Assembly: GCA_902728285.1 (NCBI GenBank)
Contig: CACVBU010000237.1
Coordinates: 1,054,001 to 1,118,000 of the forward strand
DNA length: 64,000 nt
Direction of reading: 5' to 3'
Source of the DNA: Clytia hemisphaerica
Lineage: Eukaryota; Cnidaria; Hydrozoa; Leptothecata; Clytiidae
Shown: positions 26,111-64,000 of the stretch, one piece after another
Numbering within the stretch: position 1 is the first letter of the stretch
Layout: each line of letters begins with the position of its first letter
Made by a program: the position numbers and the translations under genes
Notes under the pieces: generated by a model
Told to the model about the DNA's origin: nothing
Database searches by the model: none
The model's input: only the letters and a program-made list of their open reading frames with translations

Positions 26111-26824
26111 CTATTCAGCTTTCGGTTTTCCAAGAACTTTCTTGCGTTGGCGCAGCATGTATGTAAACAAATGATAGAATCCAGGAATATAGACAGGATA
26201 TAAGACGTAGCAAAGCCAAACAAAATCGAAACCAAAATTCAATTTGTTTGGTAATCTGATAGAGAACTTTCCTGTCTTGGTAGCATATGGAATGGAATGA
26301 TAAATGGAAATCAATTCACCTGTGACACCCATTGGGTATAACACTAAGAAAAACGTATAACGACACCATTGCAAAGAATAAGGGACATTATCCATTAATG
26401 CATTGGCGTAGAATGAATAGCGTACTATCTCGGTGATGCTCCAAGCAAACAGCAACATAGGGAATCCAATGCTCTCTTTAGCAACCTCGTCTTGCATTAA
26501 GAGAGGATCCACAATAAACCAAAGGACAAAGATTCTTGAAGCCACTTGTGGTAAAGTTGTAAATATAGATGATCTGACCAAACCAAATATAGAGTGTAAT
26601 AACTCTAACAAGGCTGCTGTTTGAGATACTTTGAGCCAGAACTCAACTTCATTGTATAATCCAGAGAAAGAGTTCTTTTCAGATATGTAGATCATTGCTT
26701 TTAGAAAGATCAGACCCCAGCCAATGATAAGAGAAACATTGTACAGAATGAGATATACTTTGGTTATTTTCAAATCACCCTTTGGAGGGGACTTCAATGT
26801 TTCCTCTGATGTTTCACTAGACAT
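26111..26824 (-). CDS. Very-long-chain (3R)-3-hydroxyacyl-CoA dehydratase (HACD/PTPLA family)
   Basis: A single open frame of 237 residues, close to the length of the family. The enzyme removes water from 3-hydroxyacyl-CoA in the third step of very-long-chain fatty acid elongation in the ER. The catalytic pair is visible as Y163-P-M-G-V-T-G-E170 in a membrane segment, the Tyr-x6-Glu spacing of the family. Other family marks are E74-L-L-H-S (followed by GLVRS) and W128-S-x2-E132-x3-Y. Several hydrophobic segments span residues about 21-45, 66-81, 95-110, 121-140, 153-175 and 200-222. The C-terminus KPKAE fits the KxKxx ER-retrieval signal. The ATG is preceded by TTTCAGTAAG, which may be the acceptor of a 5'UTR intron. 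No coding intron is present. Confidence 0.93.
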   Translation of the reverse strand: MSSETSEETLKSPPKGDLKITKVYLILYNVSLIIGWGLIFLKAMIYISEKNSFSGLYNEVEFWLKVSQTAALLELLHSIFGLVRSSIFTTLPQVASRIFVLWFIVDPLLMQDEVAKESIGFPMLLFAWSITEIVRYSFYANALMDNVPYSLQWCRYTFFLVLYPMGVTGELISIYHSIPYATKTGKFSIRLPNKLNFGFDFVWLCYVLYPVYIPGFYHLFTYMLRQRKKVLGKPKAE

Positions 26825-27992
26825 CTTACTGAAATATAAAAATATTTACGAATATGTTATTTAATCTTACGACCGCTGACACTGGCAACTGACGTAATTA
26901 CGTCAAAAACTGAAGACTGTATATTGTAATTTTTGATAAAAAATAGAGAAAAACCTTTTAGTGCTAAAATCTTAATTTTTCGGTACAGAGGTATCTTAAC
27001 CCTTTGAGCATCTTCCATTTCTAGAGGAAGTATCTTAGGGGAAACAAATTAGGTGGTGGTCGAGGTCCCCTTAAAATCTCAAGAAGTCCTATGACCTTGA
27101 GAGTTTTCCCAATTTTCCAATGTTTCCTGAAAATTTTTCATATTTTTGAAACAACTACATACCGATAAAAAAACAAGTATTGGGAAGAAAAACTTTTCAG
27201 CCAATTTCTTTTTGATTTCGTCCACAAACTCCACTGAAAGCATATACAATTTCACTTACTTTCACCTTCGCGCACAAATTTGCAACTTTAAAAGTACAGT
27301 TTTGAATTAGCTATGATGAAAAAACTCTTTTTTCATTGGCCAACGTGCTGCCGTTTACTTCAAAATGTTGCAACTTCATAGTGTATTCTTAACTTTTGTT
27401 TTGATTAACAATATCAATGCAGGTATGAAAAAAATCAATGTTGGCGCAAATAGACAAAAATTCAACGATGACAGGTGAGAAGGCAAGACGAACCCGATGA
27501 CGGACATGATTGGAGAAAATTGTGTTTTTGAAGATGTAGTTAAGTTGGTTTTGAAAAATTTTGGCAGATAAGTGCAAGGGAGAGGGGGTCTGAAACTTAT
27601 CGGCCCAATGCCAATAAAAAAATTTGAAAGTTTTTTGTCGTGTCGAAGACCCTAAAATACACGATACCAACACGTGGCAAAAATTTGATTCCATGCCCCA
27701 AATATACATCTCAATTGTCACACGTTCTCAAAATTTTTTAAGCAAAGACCTATTTTAGCATTTTCAAAGAATGACAGTTAGGAACACTTGTCAAGTTCCT
27801 GTACTCTGGCGCAATCAAAAAATCATAACCACCTTCATAAAAAAATTACGTTTGCGTCTTTTTTTACCGTTTTTTGCCTAGATGATATAGCAAACTTATA
27901 AGTATAAGCAGACTGTGCTTTTAATGGGCTGTAAAAAAATTCTGCGTCGGTTAGAAATTTCTCCAATTTTCAACAATGATAGAACACACCTA

Positions 27993-37336: not shown

Positions 37337-38117
37337 TGGACCTACCTGGTTATGCATTTAACACATATATAATTGATATCTACGTGAGCGTGACCATTAA
37401 ACAATCATTCAGAACACAAATAGTGACGATCTATTAAAATTAGCCGTTTGTTTCTTATAAAAAAAAAACGTTTAAAAACCAAAATTTCATGCTGTTGAAA
37501 TATTCTTTCATATTCAAGACTTCGTGGGCAAAAAAAAAACATCGATCTCATCAAAATATTGAGTAATTTGGCTAAACATTGATGTATGCTTATTAATAAT
37601 GATTCTTATAGATAAAGATGTATTTTTTGAGGCAACAAAATCTTTTTGCAAAAATCTGCTTGAGCCATCTTTTACCTATAATGGTACCCTACTTTGCTGC
37701 AAAAAAATTGAAAAAAATTAATGATCCAATTTTTCACCCGTTTTTTGGCCCAAATTTGCCTAAAAAAATTCTTATCGAAAATTGGGCTCCGTCACATTCG
37801 AGGGTTTATAGTTATGCATGTTTGTGCAAAAAATCAGAAAAAAACTAATGAGCCAATCTCGAGAAAAGCTGGTAACGAACGAACGAACGAACGAACGAAC
37901 GAACGAACGAACGAACAAACGAACGAAGAACGAACGAACGAACGAACGAACGAACGAACGAACGAACGAACGAACGAACGAACGAACGAACGAACGAACG
38001 AACGAACGAACGAACGAACGAACGAACGAACGAACGAACGAACGAACGAACGAACGAACGAACGAACGAACGAACATACAACGGTTAATTTATAGGACCT
38101 CCACCGGGGTAGGCCCA
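37337..38117. mobile_element. GGACCTACC-ended element, copy E, with expanded (AACG)n
   Basis: Left end TGGACCTACCTGG, right end CGGGGTAGGCCCA. Only 74 bp from copy D. It contains the family phrases near 37790-37860 and a 200-bp (AACG)n array exactly where the other copies have 20-40 bp of ACGA. Confidence 0.75.
37876..38076. repeat. (AACG)n microsatellite, about 200 bp
   Basis: Nearly perfect tetranucleotide array with interruptions near 37916-37931. Because 4 is not a multiple of 3 it reads as (NERT)n or (SFVR)n in all frames, giving spurious long open frames. It lies inside element copy E. Confidence 0.98.
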
Positions 38118-38654
38118 AAAACTAAAGCCCATTTGGGAATTAAATTGTCTTTTTTATTCTCTTTTCTCTTGACATATTCATTAAAGCAAAGCAACTTTTT
38201 ATAAGAGCCTTTTAACTCATTATTTATGGTTGATGCTTTCAACTTATTAGAAAATCATTCAGTTTGTGTGTTGAGTTTGTATAAATGCATATGCAAATGC
38301 AAATGCAGCTGTCTGTGTCTTTATTTCATGAACCCCCTCGTAGCTCCATTTGGTCAAGAAAGTTTCTTTTACAAATTACCTCATATGGCAATAGAGAAAA
38401 TATTTTTCATAATAACTTGTCATCTGGCAAAATAGCTCAAAAGTGTTCTTCATTCTAAATCGTCATTTGGCAATAGAGTTAAAAATCAAAAGTGAAAACA
38501 TAACCTTACAATTATGCCATCTTACAAACAAATGACATATTTTTAAGTCATTGGGATAATTGAAAACACTTTTTTTTGGTCGTGGCAAATAGAAAGAGTC
38601 TTTGAATAATAGCCGTGGCACTTAAAGAGTTAATAAGTTTGTTTACAGTTTGTT

Positions 38655-43807: not shown

Positions 43808-46800
43808 CTACAAGAAAAAAGTTCAAAATCAGTTCAAAGTTCCCATTCCTTCCAATTCTGTTCAGCTCATAGATGGCCCAGCCAGCTGACCCTAGACCTC
43901 GTTAAAACAATTAAAAGACTGTCTTAACGTCATAGGTTACAGGGCTATCCACGTTAAATATCCGCTTTTAATGAATGAATTAGACCTACCTACTAACAGT
44001 GGGCAGAGTAATCGCCTATACCCTTACGAGAAATTCCGTTTCTTACACTCGTGCAAGAATTAATAAAATTTTCTTTTACATTTTAGATAGTATCTATTTA
44101 AGGCCAAAAATAACTACCTACTCTTGGCCTCTCCCGCTAATTAATTTTTCGAAAAATTTCCAACCGGGGCATTCTTATTCCAACCCCCGTCCGCTTATTA
44201 ATTTTTGGTACTTTAAATGGGATTAATTTTTGCGGGGATTAATTTTCATGGGGATTTCACGGATTTTGCGGATTCGGGCATCATCCGCGAAATTACGTCC
44301 CAATGGAAATTTGGAGGCCTTATCCGCGAAAAATTTCTAAACAAAACTTAACATATATCAAATAAACTACTTTTGAATGTTTACTGGCATCAAAGAAGCG
44401 CCAACAAGGCGTTTTTCAACAACCAGCATGCATGGTTGACAGTGAAAGGGACAAAATCGTGAAAATATTGTCATCCAATAGTTCCATCCGCGAAAATAAG
44501 TCTCTGTAAAACCTTAAAACTTGGCGGATGAGCTCAAGCGCGTAATTTAACTCCCGTGAAAATTAATCCCATTAAAGTATTTCTATCAGCCAGGATATTT
44601 GTTTTTTTTCTTGCCAAAATCTATTTTTTATTTACTAGACACGAGATACGAAATTTTCTAACCCCCCTACTCATTAAGTTTTGAGATTTTTCCCAACCCT
44701 CTCATCTATTAGGTACCCGAGAGTACACCGACCTTTAAAAAGCGATTTGAGCAGGTATCACGGCTTCCTCGATAGAAACGATTATACACTTTCGATAAGC
44801 AAAATCTCGCAAAAACGATTAAAAAAAGATTACTTCATAAATAAGGCAATAATTCACCGTTGCGCAACCTTTAGATTGTTTTGAAGAAAAGCCGAAAAAC
44901 TGAATTTTTGAATGGAAAACTAACTTTCAATAAATTGGTCCCGGTCACATTTCGACCAAGATCAAAACGAACCATAAGATCTGATTAACAGAAGATGTGA
45001 TTAACAGAAGATCTGATTAACAGACGAACCGTTTTTTTGAATTAAAAATCCAAATTTAATGTATTATTTATAAAAAGCGTTTCAAACGGTAATAAAATGA
45101 AAAAAAACTTCCAAGTCCAAGTATAAATTGTTAAAAAATATATTTTAGGAAGATTTTCAAATGCTCTATAAGACTATCACCACGCAAAATGAGACACCTC
45201 ATTCAATACGAAAATTCCCCTTATTCTTTATGAAATACCTATCTTACATTTTAATAATAAAAAATTACTACGTCTTTCAAGCTTTTATGCAAATAATGAT
45301 CGCCCTCAATAAGGATACCGGATTACACGCAAGTGACTCTTACTTCCTTTGGATATTTGATGAATCTGTGAATCCAATGAAATTCTAGGAATCGTTTGTC
45401 AGTAATAGAACTATCGTCAATAATTTCATCGATAAACTCTTTGGATGTCACTTTCCTTGCATCTTCTCGTTTCATAACATCTGAAATGATCAATTTCAAG
45501 TAACCACGCAATGACGGTATTATTTCCAATTTTGATAAGGTGGTAACACTGGAGGAAGAAATTTGTTTTAATGTACCTTCCAAGATCGGCTGAACCTCTT
45601 TGAACCATTCAGAGCTTTCGTTGTAATACATACAATGATCTCTAATAAAGATTCCTGAATATACTTTAAACATTTTTGTAAAAGCGTTGTCTTCCTCCGA
45701 CAAATGCAATCTACCGAGATGGGGTAAAAATAGCTCTGATAATATATTGGAATCAAATTTAATCCAAAAATTAATTTCGAAAAGTGGGGTTTTCCCTTTC
45801 AACATGTTTGATAGTTTGGAAATATCGAAATCAATAGAAAGTTTTAAGAGAGGTTGTTTAAGCAGAGTGTATCTATTCAGCTTTCCAAAGGCACATTCGT
45901 CAAAGGTCCTGAGCAACGATTGAAACTTTAAAGTACGTTCAAAAGTGTCTTGGAATTGCTGAACGGTGGTGCAGTGATGGAGGTCTAATTCGATGGTTCT
46001 CTGAATGAACCAATCCATTCTCAAAAGGTCTCGTATATGCTCGTTTGATAATCGTTCTGTCATGAGCAATGAACTTACGACGCTTAAAAATGGACTTAAT
46101 ACGTTTACGATAGGTTCTGCTGAGAAATTCTGCTGGTCACCGACGTCTGAAAGATTTGCAACTGTTTCTTTAAGGACCGGCAAAATATGCGTGAAAATGT
46201 CACGTCGTTCAAAATGTTTGACATGGTCTAAAAAGTAATTACTTGCACAAATCTTGAATCGACTAAGAAGTTGGCTATCTTCAAGATATGATTGGAGCAG
46301 GCTAACAATCTCAACATAGGGTGTGGTTCCATTTAAATCAGAATTTTGTCCAACAACGTAAAGTTTTGTGGTGCATCGCATTGAAATGTTACATTCGTGG
46401 TGCTCCAGATCTTCCTCCAACATTTCAGCGTTTTCGTAAACCACAACCGGCGATTCGAAGCCCGATACGTAATTTCGAGAGACAACTAGAACATTTCCTT
46501 GACGTAGGAAGTCGCATGGGTTTTCATCATTGTTGAAATCGTTTCTTGAGGAATGGAAGAATTTAACTTGTTCGTTTGGTGGAACAGGGAAATTAACACT
46601 GTCTGAAACAAGAAGAAATCCTTCCTTTGGTTTTGGCAGTAAGCGCTCTTCAAATATGGCTTCGCCGAAAGAGGATACATGCACGGCTGGACTTCCAATA
46701 AGGAAATTCACGGGAGTTTCTGAAACACCATGTGCATATTCGTAGAGTTGTGTTTCAGCTATACTTTTCGTTTTCTTCACAATCTCTTTTGTATTTCTCA

Positions 46801-49800
46801 GATTGCAAGTTAAGTGAATGATTTCAAAACCCTTGAAATGAATTTTAAGCAAACTCAATTCTTTTGATTTCGCACGGTAAGCCGAGTTAGGTGCGATCCA
46901 ACACACGGGAAGATCATCCAACCATTTAACGTCAATTTTTTGTTGAACATCTTCATTCCATTCGTCGAAGAAGATCGCTTTGAAGTGCTGTCTTATCCAT
47001 GGCATCTTCAAACTTTCCTGCAAAAGAAACAAGGTAAGTTCTCAGCATAATTTTAGAATATTCTTTTTGGCATGTCTTTTGTCGCAGTTCTGGTTGTTTC
47101 CTTTCACTAGTTACAGAATATGGCCCCCCAAAATTGTAGGTGCCCCCCCCCCCATCTTGGGCCCTGGAATAGAACTAAAAATTCTAAAGATGGGTAATAG
47201 ATAAGACCTGTGGAATTATTTTGCTATTTACTTGACAAAAAATTAACTTTGCATACATACAATATTATTATTTTCTAAATCAGCAAAAACGGCAAATATT
47301 GTCATTTTAATGAATTCTTTTATAATTGTAAACTTTTTGAATTTTGCTCAGTGGTTCTCAAGTCATGAACTTTTGAAGCCAAAAATTTGCTTTTGAAAAA
47401 GCCCAAAACATGCCAAAAATGGGGTATCAAATTAAATTATTTTTTAAAAATTTATTTTTTACTAAAAACTTTTTGAAAAATCGCTCAGAATTACTATTTT
47501 CCTATTTTTCGCCATAACTTTTGTTAGGATAATTGATAAAAATCAGCTGAGATCATTGTGTCGTAAAAGCCATTAAAAATGTGAAAATGTGGTTTTCCGA
47601 ATAGAATAGCGCACAAGAAAACCACTGTACCAATTTTAAAAAGCTATATGCCAAATTTTAAGTCTTGACAATCAAAAAAGGATATAGTAAAAATTCACGT
47701 AATTTTGGACACAACCATCAAAAATGAAAATGCACAGGTCGACAAAATACAAATGATTGACTTACGATTGCAGACTTGCCAGTGATAACAGTGATTCCTT
47801 TCTCTTCAAGATGGGCTTTTCGGTCGTGGTACAATAAGCCTTCTCCATTACAAATGACATACAGTATTCGATCTCTAAATGTATCATTTTTACTTAATAT
47901 GATGGCTTTTTCAAATAATAAGAAAGTTTTTCCTGTTCCGAAACCAGCCATAAATATAACTTTATTGTAACATGGATCTTTGCTGCTTATTACTGGAAGT
48001 TGCTGTTTTGAGTAGAAAACTATATTGTGTGTATTGGAGAGAGAATCGATTGCATTTCTAACATATTCAAACAGATGGGTCGTAGTGATTGGTCTTGGCT
48101 GGTCTTTGGTTGACATGTGGATTGAGAACACTATCAGTTGGAGGACCTTCTTGAGTTGTTCCAGAGGATGTAGATGAGGAAGCTGGTACAGACACGCCGA
48201 ACGGTTGTTTAAAACGTTTGATAGCCATGTCCTTAAATCAGTACTCAGGTCGATGAAATGGTGATTTGAAAAGTTGATGGTGTTTTTTTCTACGCATATC
48301 ACAGGATGGAAGGACCACCCTGGTCCAAGTTGATCACCGAGTTGCTTCTCCAGCGCTGAATGATACTTGTTAAGCTGTTTGAATGCTGTTGTCTTACTCG
48401 TCAGTGTTCTTTTCACTTCCACACCAATGATGAGCTTGCGTGACCAAGAGAAGATGAGCATATCAAATTCTTGGTGCATCTGACTAGTGACATCTGTCAT
48501 GAAATTGACTGATGATAAAACTACAATGTCCTGCAGTATTTCATCATTCTTTAGTGAAAACAATTTCTCGAAGAAGGAACGTTCGTTTTTCTCTCCACGA
48601 CTAGCCAACTTCAAATTGATAAACCAGCTGAGTATCGGATCCTGTGGCGGTAGTTTGGCTATTTGTTTTTCCACTTTCACTTTCATTTTGTTCGCAGTCA
48701 AGATGTTCAAAATGGAAGAGCTCGGTGCGATACTGTTCAGCTCTTTAGTACACTCCTGAGTGAATGTAGGTGATGTTGTCATTGGCAAATTCAGCTTACT
48801 AACGTCCAGTTCCTGAGTTAACAGGTACATCACTTTCACTTTTAGAATCCACTTTTCGTATTCTGTTTGATCGATTTCACTACCTTGTTTTTGGGTTTGA
48901 AGAAAGACGTCTAAGTCCTTGGTAAGCCAAAATTTTGGAGCTTGTTTCTTAAGATTCTCAAGAGTTTGTCTCATTTGATTTTCAATGTCCGGTTCAAGGT
49001 CTGCAGTTGACGATTCTTTAAAATACTGACTGCATACAAATTCTGATGATATAAAGATTGGTTCATGGTGATTTGAGTCGAAAACGAAAGATTCCCCGTA
49101 CTCTCTCTCTAAAAGATATTCAGCAGCTAGGATCGGATCTTGAAACGTTTGTCCGTTGCCAACATTAAATTGTCGGTCTTGGTTTGCAAGGACTTTCTGT
49201 TGGTTGACGAATGAACCAGTAATTTGTTGATGTAACGATTTCGAAGATGTACATCTTAAAGGGTCGATTGCTCGAGGTGCCAACTTGATTAATTCTTGTA
49301 TCAAATTAGCCATTTTAATTCTTAACCCCTTTCATCTCTATTAAAGAAATTCTGATAAACTAAAAGAGAAAAATTGTACTCATTTAAAATGGAATTTACG
49401 TCACGCACTCCATAATCAAAATAGTTTTACTAATGAAATGATTGTTTTAATCGGTTCTAATGACAATCTTGAGTAGAATTTTTTTTTATACGAAACATTT
49501 TATAAGAACAATGAGGCTTAAAAATGCCAAAAAATAATAACAAATTAAGAACAGTGGAGAGGCTGAAGTTAGAGTTATAGCAAAAAGAATCACTGGTTTC
49601 TAAAATCCTCTATAGTAAATAGCCAAAACTTGTTTTTTACCTTAGAAAAAATAAGAACAAAATAAGAATAATTCAAGGCTCAAAGTGCCAAAAAAAATTT
49701 GAACAGCCGAGCCTCAGCAAAAATTTACTGGTTCTTATAAAAAAAAAGTGTAGCCTGTGAAAAACCTATTATTAGCATTATAATGATTCATTTTAACTTA

Positions 49801-62084: not shown

Positions 62085-63243
62085 CTACAAAAAAGTAAGT
62101 GAGATTAAAATCAAACCCTTTTTGCATTTTAGCATTACTTCTTAGTAAATGTTAGACCCCTAAACCTGAGAAGAAAAAAGATTATGGCTAAAGATGATAA
62201 TGTCTAGATAAGATGTTGGATCTCCGAAGCTGTAGGGTCCTCTGGAAACAAATTTATAAAAGGGGGGGGGGTGACGGAAAAAAGGGAAAAGTCGAATAAA
62301 AGAACCTTTTTAAACGCAGTCAGAGAAAAATAGGTAGCTAAAATTATGTTTTTCTAGAGGTTTTAGTGCGAATTTGACACATCCGAAAAAGTTTACAAAG
62401 AAGGTGATCTTTAAGCAGATTCTAGGGACTCTGCGCAAGACGCGTATTCTAAAGACCATGACTCTTAAAAGAATCTACTTAAGTTGGAGGACTGCTTTGA
62501 TATTTTTCATCGAGTATACGGCCAGTCGCTTAAGAAGCAGGTCATACATCTCTTTAGAGAAAAGCAGGCCGCGCTGTACGCAGAGAAAGTGATATGTCAT
62601 GAGATTAAAAAAAGAAGGGGAAGTTAAATTCATTGTATTTGTTAGAACTCGCAAGTTATCAAGAAAACTCTGAAAAACCCGAAAATGGTGAGCTCTTTGT
62701 GAGAAAGGAAAACGCAAGAAGATTCATGTCAACAACATGAAATGTGCAGTGACCTGGATTTTGGTATGTTTCTGAATTTTTAGATGGAGGATAATATGAA
62801 CGACATCTCCACTGGTGATGTTACATTCATTGGAAATTCTTACGGTGTAATTATTATAGAGATAAAATTTTTATCTTTTTGATGTATGGAGATTTCTTTG
62901 AGAGATCAAAGTCAAGAAAACATAAATAGAAGAATTTTAATAAAATCCAATTGATGAGTCGACAGTAAAGGGCGAAATACCATACAATATATTTTTATGA
63001 GGGAAGTGTCAAATGTTTTACACATGATATCAATAGATGTATTGAAAGTGCAAAAGGTGTCCCAATCAGATCGATTTATTAACTGCCAATAAGAAAGATA
63101 GCATTCGAAATAAAATTCACACAACAAGAGCCTGAAGGGGAAGCTAAGGAATACATGTTTCTCTACCTAGTCTTATAAGGTGGTGTAACCATTTCATCTA
63201 AGAAAGAGGGAAGCAGTTTTTAAATGACAACTGAGGGGTCGCC
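62085..63243. other. Spacer between the divergent RH-domain and FReD genes
   Basis: The 5' exons of the RH gene (start codon and most of a RUN domain, if present) are not recognised here, so they lie beyond the window or are too short to see. Two minus-strand frames (62475-62717, 62912-63127) have no supporting splice context. Confidence 0.4.
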
Positions 63244-64000
63244 ATGTTAAAGACTTTATTCATTTTCATTCATATTATTCGATATATTAACGCAACCCAC
63301 CTATTGTTCAACAGAATCGGTGAAAATGTTGAAATTCAAGACATTGAACCGTTTTACGAAGGAAGAGTAACAAGCAAGCTTCAATGTTCCCTTCTCTGCC
63401 AAAGACACAAAATGGTTTTCGCACAATTCTCAATTCAATACAAATCTCTCTTCAGATGCTACCTTTTTAACGATGTCGATGATGTCATCTCGAAGTTATC
63501 TGAGCGAAAGGGAAGTCAATTGTTCATGGTTTTCAACGAGCCTGACTTGAGCCAGCAAGTTCAAAAACCTATGGACCACCATCTATCAACCACAACATCC
63601 AATCAATCAGAATGCTTAGATTGGTATGAGAAGGGCCACCACGGAAACGATGTCTACAGCCATATGATAGCTGGGAAAGCTACACAGGCCTATTGTATCA
63701 TGGAAGACCAAGCGGGTTATGGGGGCGGCTGGACGGTCTTTCAGCGCCGGACCGATGCGCAAACACCCTTCTCTCAAGGATGGGAAAAATACAAAAATGG
63801 TTTTGGTGAAGTTGGGAAAAACCATTGGCTAGGTCTCGAACAAATCCACCGATTCACCAAAAGTCGGGCTACGACTGAATTATTGATATGTGGTAAGCGG
63901 TTCAATGGTGAAGAAAGATGCGCACATTTCGAAGGATTCGCTGTCGGTGACGAAGCATCGGAATATAAAATGAAAAAGTGGTTATCCAACGAATCTGGCA
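63244..64000 (+). CDS. Secreted PAN/apple-like plus fibrinogen C-terminal domain protein (FReD lectin), 3' end outside window
   Basis: Open from ATG 63244 to the window edge (252 codons) without a stop or evident intron. The N-terminus is hydrophobic (residues 1-17), consistent with a signal peptide. Residues about 30-80 hold C48, C52 and C72 in the pattern of a PAN/apple module (CSLLC...FRCYLF). A Ser/Thr/Asn-rich linker follows (about 105-122). Residues 124 onward are a fibrinogen-related domain: C124 and C151 (the conserved first disulfide pair), GGGWTVFQRR at 160-169, W180-x2-Y183-x-x-GFG, then HWLGLEQIH at 194-202. The C-terminal half with the calcium site and second disulfide is outside the window. 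FReD lectins bind acetylated or glycan ligands in invertebrate immunity and adhesion; the role here is inferred. Confidence 0.92.
   Translation, partial: MLKTLFIFIHIIRYINATHLLFNRIGENVEIQDIEPFYEGRVTSKLQCSLLCQRHKMVFAQFSIQYKSLFRCYLFNDVDDVISKLSERKGSQLFMVFNEPDLSQQVQKPMDHHLSTTTSNQSECLDWYEKGHHGNDVYSHMIAGKATQAYCIMEDQAGYGGGWTVFQRRTDAQTPFSQGWEKYKNGFGEVGKNHWLGLEQIHRFTKSRATTELLICGKRFNGEERCAHFEGFAVGDEASEYKMKKWLSNESG

Follow-up and report, generated by a model that had tools for sequence, protein, structure and literature searches.

Nuclease and helicase modules occur together in several described proteins. RecB carries its nuclease C-terminally, and vertebrate Schlafens pair a nuclease with a superfamily 1 (SF1)-like helicase. 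The passage on Nhi in a review (PMC12904381) describes a nuclease-helicase that nicks and unwinds DNA after sensing a phage protein, and the text on Hachiman in PMC12278908 describes a helicase that restrains its nuclease until damage is sensed. Here we describe a gene in a 64,000-nucleotide stretch of the genome of the hydrozoan Clytia hemisphaerica (assembly GCA_902728285.1, contig CACVBU010000237.1, positions 1,054,001 to 1,118,000; hereafter the window). We found that the gene belongs to an expanded animal family, of which this genome has dozens of diverged copies. Its predicted protein joins a PD-(D/E)xK-type nuclease signature to an SF1 helicase core and continues into C-terminal repeats. 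Judged from sequence, the best-matching architecture that we found is that of the prokaryotic NERD-helicases, not RecB. An original prediction, made from the DNA letters alone, had already proposed an animal gene with such a nuclease signature fused to an SF1 helicase, and our comparisons support it; that reading lacked two features, the membership in a large family and the C-terminal repeats.

The gene lies on the minus strand (49313-45323, in window coordinates) and consists of two exons, whose phase-0 join at 47765/47018 gives a predicted protein of 1,080 residues:

47766..49313, minus strand: exon 1, residues 1-516 (N-terminal domain, nuclease domain, linker, helicase Q-like motif and Walker A); open frame with a GTAAGT donor at 47765
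47018..47765, minus strand: phase-0 intron, 748 bp, holding a repeat present at many other places in the genome
45323..47017, minus strand: exon 2, residues 517-1080 and the stop (helicase motifs II-VI and the C-terminal repeats); CAG acceptor at 47018

The predicted splice is supported by its consensus sites and by the same arrangement in paralogs, and the spliced length of about 1,080 residues proposed earlier holds, with the exons joining in phase 0 at the GTAAGT and CAG sites. Among eight paralogs read at the gene end, seven have an in-frame stop of their own and one runs off its locus; no donor common to the eight was seen by eye near that end. The gene therefore probably does end at the stop at 45323-45325, and the paralog ends led us to discount a possible 3' donor near 45341. 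The repeat in the intron (47331-47722; its matches in the genome search fall at query positions 1592-1983) has parts in opposite orientation and many dispersed genome matches, and it looks like a foldback element or a miniature inverted-repeat transposable element.

We searched the assembly that holds the window (417 Mb, 951 contigs) with the protein of each exon. The exon-1 protein matched at least 89 rows and the exon-2 protein at least 84; these are lower bounds, because 83 of 192 candidates were scored for exon 1 and 77 of 141 for exon 2. Match rows are not genes, as certain places yield two rows. Sixty of the 89 exon-1 rows, on 50 contigs, span at least 480 query residues without an internal stop. 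After nine rows from a second query were added, the matches resolved into 88 places on 69 contigs under a 3-kb merging rule, which fused two tandem copies on contig C256. Several groups of copies stand in tandem. Contig C93 is collinear with the window and includes the PTPLA gene (97 percent), which indicates a haplotig or a long recent duplication; certain places are therefore allelic, so that there are fewer genes than places. The C93 copy of the gene (~484220-488587; loci L002, L004 and L042) is disrupted by an insertion of ~390 bases and has lost its exon-2 frame, which makes it a null allele or else a duplicate that has decayed. Our open-access literature search, which covered titles and abstract openings, found no published description of the family. 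The exon-1 analyses below use the best 30 of the 89 match rows, and residue counts take all 30 exon-1 rows or all 23 joined rows. The alignments keep the studied gene and 21 of the 29 other exon-2 loci (A2), 18 of the 23 joined rows (A3) and 27 of the 30 exon-1 rows (A4).

By the Nei-Gojobori method, the ratio of nonsynonymous to synonymous substitution rates (dN/dS) was 0.13-0.44 in the 25 closest of the 435 exon-1 pairs formed by 30 sequences. Over all 435 pairs the median ratio of the corresponding proportions (pN/pS) was 0.44, with synonymous sites near saturation. Exon-1 dN/dS thus places the family under purifying selection. The longest open stretch of the gene has 572 codons, versus a maximum of 256 among 300 second-order Markov sequences. 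This open length, the recurrence of both exons across the genome, the invariant motif residues described below and the dN/dS values of the closest pairs together argue that the gene is not a product of chance.

The copies also bear on how the family spread. In 24 of 25 testable rows (the other five of the 30 rows had no exon-2 match in their locus), a phase-0 donor-like site lies at most 60 bases past the conserved glycine 506; hence, the intron is probably older than the family expansion. Among the upstream flanks of the 30 exon-1 rows, 16 of 435 pairs have any similarity. Those similarities that reach the gene belong to recent duplicates or alleles, the others are short or distant from it, and no common terminus was found among the 30 flanks compared. 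The shared intron site and the dissimilar flanks argue against retrocopies or a transposon. It is therefore very improbable that the gene encodes a mobile-element protein spread by recent or current transposition. The presence of copies on 69 contigs and the reverse-transcriptase-like open frames that we read by eye in the 64-kb window would suit such an element, but the constant donor position, the scarcity of similar flanks, the tandem groups and purifying selection do not, and the copies show neither common termini in their upstream flanks nor the intronless spread of a transposable-element gene.

The part of exon 1 upstream of the helicase motifs holds two domains:

48669..49313, minus strand: N-terminal domain, residues 1-215, conserved in the family, with many invariant residues in alignment A1
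48294..48596, minus strand: predicted NERD-like PD-(D/E)xK nuclease domain, residues ~240-340, with E244, D284, E299, K301 and Q313

Pfam gave nothing above cut-off for the N-terminal domain of the studied protein, with ResIII as a sub-threshold match only. The PD-(D/E)xK signature is present in the correct order (the acidic D, the (D/E)xK and the Q of the following helix), and E244, D284, E299, K301 and Q313 are each identical in all 30 exon-1 rows. The numbering first given for D284, E299, K301, Q313 and Y317 was exact, and the claim that the catalytic residues are intact agrees with the invariance of the key residues in 30/30 exon-1 or 23/23 joined rows. Several PD-(D/E)xK-type Pfam models match the family below cut-off. 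HSDR_N_2 does so in the studied nuclease segment (E 0.0058), and across 27 members, at E up to 1, HSDR_N_2 appears in 19, DUF4268 in 14 and NERD in 6 (best 0.00015). Searching the genome for the NERD family returned no matches. Against PDB, the nuclease profile found nothing useful (best 0.57, chorismate mutase, then 1.4, EndoMS) and the single protein had no match. Some members have other exon-1 Pfam matches, to nSTAND_NTPase5 (9 of 30, best 0.0039) and Bac_DnaA (13 of 30, best 4.5e-7). We rejected a single, chance-like NCBIfam match, and the scattered unrelated Pfam names on exon-2 members (best 7e-05, Spore_permease, in 3 of 22) were likewise taken as chance.

These searches also speak to an RNA-directed, Schlafen-like activity, with tRNA or viral RNA as the target of the nuclease and with the SF1 domain as a gate. 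We consider this quite unlikely. The pairing of nuclease and SF1-like helicase is the same as in vertebrate Schlafens, and Schlafen 5 appeared weakly in a profile search (E 0.64). However, the nuclease signature belongs to a different class. SLFN_AlbA_2 does not appear in the 25 families listed (out of 38) for the 30 exon-1 members, and the SLFN-g3 helicase matches one of 18 members (E 0.092), with no genome match at E 0.001. By these matches, the family shows neither the SLFN core nuclease nor the SLFN helicase. The genome has a single SLFN_AlbA_2 match (contig C508:469308-469619, E 4.4e-5), on a contig without exon-1 places of the family.

The helicase motifs follow the nuclease domain and are split between the exons:

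47925..47945, minus strand: Walker A, GFGTGKT, residues 457-463; G461 and K462 in 30/30 rows
46958..46972, minus strand: motif II, FFDEW, residues 532-536; D534 and E535 in 23/23 joined rows
46781..46813, minus strand: motif IV, LTCNLRNTKEI, residues 585-595; L585, N588, R590 and N591 in 23/23, aligned to PcrA
46448..46462, minus strand: motif V, GFESP, residues 702-706, usually GFEWP in the family; G702 and F703 in 23/23
46367..46381, minus strand: motif VI, MRCTT, residues 729-733; R730 and C731 in 23/23

Position 705 of motif V is W in 21 of 23 rows, S in the studied copy and C in one. The motifs named at the outset were all correctly placed (GFGTGKT at 457-463, FFDE at 532-535, LRNT at 589-592, GFESP at 702-706 and R730 as the motif VI arginine). 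An alignment of 18 spliced members matches PcrA (E 1e-4) as its best PDB match. By motifs I, II, IV, V and VI, we assign the predicted helicase to SF1A (UvrD-like), a class from which its motif III departs. In the profile searches of the two halves, the SF1 part matched PcrA, and the nuclease part stayed below Pfam cut-offs and had no useful PDB match.

We compared the animal core with prokaryotic NERD-helicases. The 11 proteins used are a chosen sample, gathered from an Arcobacter protein and a Nostoc relative, with eight of the 11 picked for length and diversity among 40 listed of 111 records. In a local profile-profile alignment (hhalign), the animal core (23 rows) matched this set with a probability of 97.6 percent and an E of 4.5e-12 over 464 columns, versus a best E of 0.11 for 30 column-shuffled controls and 0.17 for the reversed profile. 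Nuclease and helicase stand in the same order in both, with the catalytic motifs in register. By half, E was 1.8e-12 for the helicase and 0.0043 for the nuclease, and most of the score comes from the helicase part. The nuclease half had no match in four plasmid UvrD-type helicases without NERD (E 0.61), versus 8.8e-5 to 0.43 when 20 sets of four were drawn at random from the NERD-helicases. What speaks for a NERD-helicase layout is the shared order of both parts rather than the helicase by itself. For the original description of a RecB/NERD-like nuclease with UvrD/RecB-type order, this means that NERD-like and UvrD-type fit, and RecB does not, the nuclease being N-terminal here; among the Pfam matches listed, none is a RecB-named family.

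We reached the prokaryotic relatives through leads rather than direct significant homology. Screening the 30 exon-1 members with PADLOC models gave RTasNERD-Hel, the NERD-helicase that accompanies defence reverse transcriptases, in one, AbiO in two and Nhi in one. One member, L038, matched RTasNERD-Hel (2.9e-7, residues 400-475) and AbiO (7.8e-5, nuclease region), and another, L028, matched Nhi weakly (0.0047); for the studied exons, no match to these three models was seen at E up to 10. A tblastn search of L038 against plasmids returned seven records at E 5-7, three of which are one Arcobacter NERD protein, and we took this as a lead only. That protein (L071), annotated as NERD domain-containing, has NERD at residues 13-118 and helicase matches after it; single-sequence comparisons with it were weak (probabilities 44, 6 and 33 percent). 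No tblastn match was found for the studied exon 1 or L028 in plasmids, or for the studied exon 2 or L038 in phages. Likewise, tblastn confirmed no relative among the pattern-scan candidates in viral contigs and genome contigs, and no relatives of the Arcobacter protein were confirmed in viral contigs. These searches did not bear out the prokaryotic origin that had been suggested as possible. On an Arcobacter cloacae plasmid (L072, 501-2369), a NERD-helicase gene lies between annotated cas6 and csx20. At three of the four UvrD-type control loci (L082, L084 and L085), the helicase gene comes immediately after a very long gene for a DEAD/DEAH-box helicase.

Beyond the helicase, the protein ends in two copies of one degenerate repeat:

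45992..46318, minus strand: C-terminal repeat 1, residues 750-858; this copy in four members, studied gene included, was used to build the repeat hidden Markov model (HMM; alignment A5)
45425..45709, minus strand: C-terminal repeat 2, residues 953-1047; domain E 1.5e-8 with the repeat-1 HMM

The repeat HMM finds one to four copies in 15 of 18 exon-2 proteins (domain E < 1e-3) and has no match at E 0.01 in 360 shuffled sequences. Two members (L041 and L043) have a middle copy, which the studied gene lacks. Against PDB, the best E of the repeat profile was 0.51. Judged by eye, the repeats are probably helical, and we propose that they are a new kind of repeat. In three paralogs, identity was 94/242, 134/331 and 138/333 in the C-terminus, versus 155, 148 and 139 of 222 in the helicase part; the repeat part is thus the less conserved of the two.

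Copy number, the disrupted C93 copy and the variable repeats make a defence repertoire a better fit than core repair. The repair alternative, a Dna2- or RecB-like nuclease-helicase that maintains the genome by acting on DNA ends or replication intermediates, is unlikely in our estimate. It draws on the UvrD/PcrA-like core with its intact nuclease signature and on purifying selection. Core repair enzymes are normally single-copy, whereas this family occupies dozens of divergent places and forms tandem groups; moreover, its repeat number differs among paralogs, and the broken C93 copy suggests that loss may be tolerated.

We propose, with about an even chance of being right, that the protein is an ATP-driven, nucleic-acid-degrading defence effector with a NERD-helicase layout and variable C-terminal repeats. 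The architecture is well supported; we infer the activity, the substrate and the role in defence. DNA would be a likelier substrate than RNA, and an innate-defence role is plausible. By analogy, the logic of Nhi and Hachiman may carry over to the animal family. The protein would stay idle in the cell until triggered. The C-terminal repeats, perhaps with the N-terminal domain, would then contact viral or foreign nucleic acid or protein, and this contact would license ATP hydrolysis and translocation of the SF1 core on single-stranded nucleic acid. The core would feed the strand to the nuclease, which would cut or nick it by means of D284, E299 and K301. The many diverged copies could provide a repertoire of specificities. 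More tentatively, and somewhat short of an even chance, the family may be a large and so far undescribed set of intracellular immune receptors of animals, with dozens of diverged copies per genome. Such receptors would have a bacterial-style NERD nuclease-SF1 helicase core in place of NLR, RIG-I or Schlafen parts, and within one protein the variable repeats would recognise and the nuclease would execute.

Several results weigh against a NERD-helicase-like defence effector. Pfam NERD (PF08378) matches the studied nuclease segment at E 0.0024 with 18.8 bits, below its cut-off of 22.1, and UvrD-helicase gives 12.4 bits against a cut-off of 23. In the profile-profile comparison, the nuclease half by itself is weakly significant. 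The four UvrD-type helicases, a small control sample picked from the same record list, match the animal helicase half (score 49.0, E 1.8e-5). This score falls within the range of the 20 NERD-helicase subsets (39.8-77.2, with a median of 60.9); the helicase half thus shows a leaning towards NERD-helicases without singling them out. No pair among the 25 closest has an exon-1 dN/dS above 1. Finally, motif III of SF1A usually carries a GDxxQ-type glutamine, and the family mostly has W-I/V/L-x-P without it (P at 559 in 19 of 23 rows), which makes unwinding less certain than ATP hydrolysis.

The altered motif III would also suit an ATP-driven switch that is not a helicase, in which the SF1 core would be a regulatory nucleoside triphosphatase (NTPase) between sensor repeats and an effector nuclease, as in STAND proteins. 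The effector-NTPase-repeat layout and the nSTAND_NTPase5 and Bac_DnaA matches in exon 1 of some members point the same way. Nevertheless, exon 1 has the P-loop half only, motifs IV, V and VI carry SF1-type residues that are mostly invariant, and the alignment of the helicase half with NERD-helicases runs from Walker A to motif VI; hence, we regard such a switch as rather unlikely. If the proposed defence effector is correct, a non-bilaterian animal keeps dozens of proteins with a bacterial anti-phage layout and repeats that could give specificity. This would be a new class in the innate immunity of animals and one more connection between the antiviral systems of prokaryotes and animals. Even without a role in defence, the family and its repeat merit annotation, because the studied protein reached no curated Pfam cut-off.

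The window holds other features outside the gene:

26111-26845, minus strand: PTPLA/HACD-type gene, Pfam PTPLA E 2.7e-59, with the collinear 97 percent copy on C93
13907-14758, 22885-24904 and 29284-31520, minus strand: open frames that read by eye as reverse transcriptases of the non-long-terminal-repeat type
37712-38204, plus strand: simple tandem repeat, reading as E-R-T-N runs in two frames
63235-64000, plus strand: open frame with a fibrinogen C-terminal domain, E 2.5e-26, running off the end of the window

At conserved positions of COX1 and cytochrome b, elsewhere in the genome, TGA stands for Trp, AGA and AGG for Arg, ATA for Ile and AAA for Lys. This is the table-4 mitochondrial code, the one used by non-bilaterian animals, and it agrees with a probable hydrozoan source. 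COX1 follows cytochrome b on the same strand, the order shown for a hydroidolinan in the part of PMC4655093 that deals with it.

Compared with known systems, the studied protein would, by its layout, work like a NERD-helicase, though it falls below the Pfam NERD cut-off. Like the plasmid NERD-helicases (for instance WNL35164.1 from Arcobacter and WP_015116150.1 from Nostoc), it has a predicted NERD-like nuclease followed by an SF1 helicase, collinear over the 464 profile columns, at ~15% identity to the animal core in a global profile alignment. The animal family differs in its C-terminal repeats and its intron. The Arcobacter protein L071, whose NERD match begins at residue 13, lacks the preceding 215-residue domain, and by eye it keeps a glutamine at the motif III position, where the animal family lacks it. 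The anti-phage proteins Nhi, AbiO and RTasNERD-Hel also combine nuclease and helicase in a single protein, whereas the studied exons match none of their PADLOC models. UvrD and PcrA share motifs I, II, IV, V and VI with the animal protein, which differs in its sub-threshold Pfam score, altered motif III and fused N-terminal nuclease. RecB and AddAB likewise join a PD-(D/E)xK nuclease to an SF1 helicase, with the RecB nuclease at the opposite, C-terminal end. Vertebrate Schlafens, a defence family, resemble the animal family in having several members and in pairing a nuclease with an SF1-like helicase, and differ from it in the class of their nuclease.

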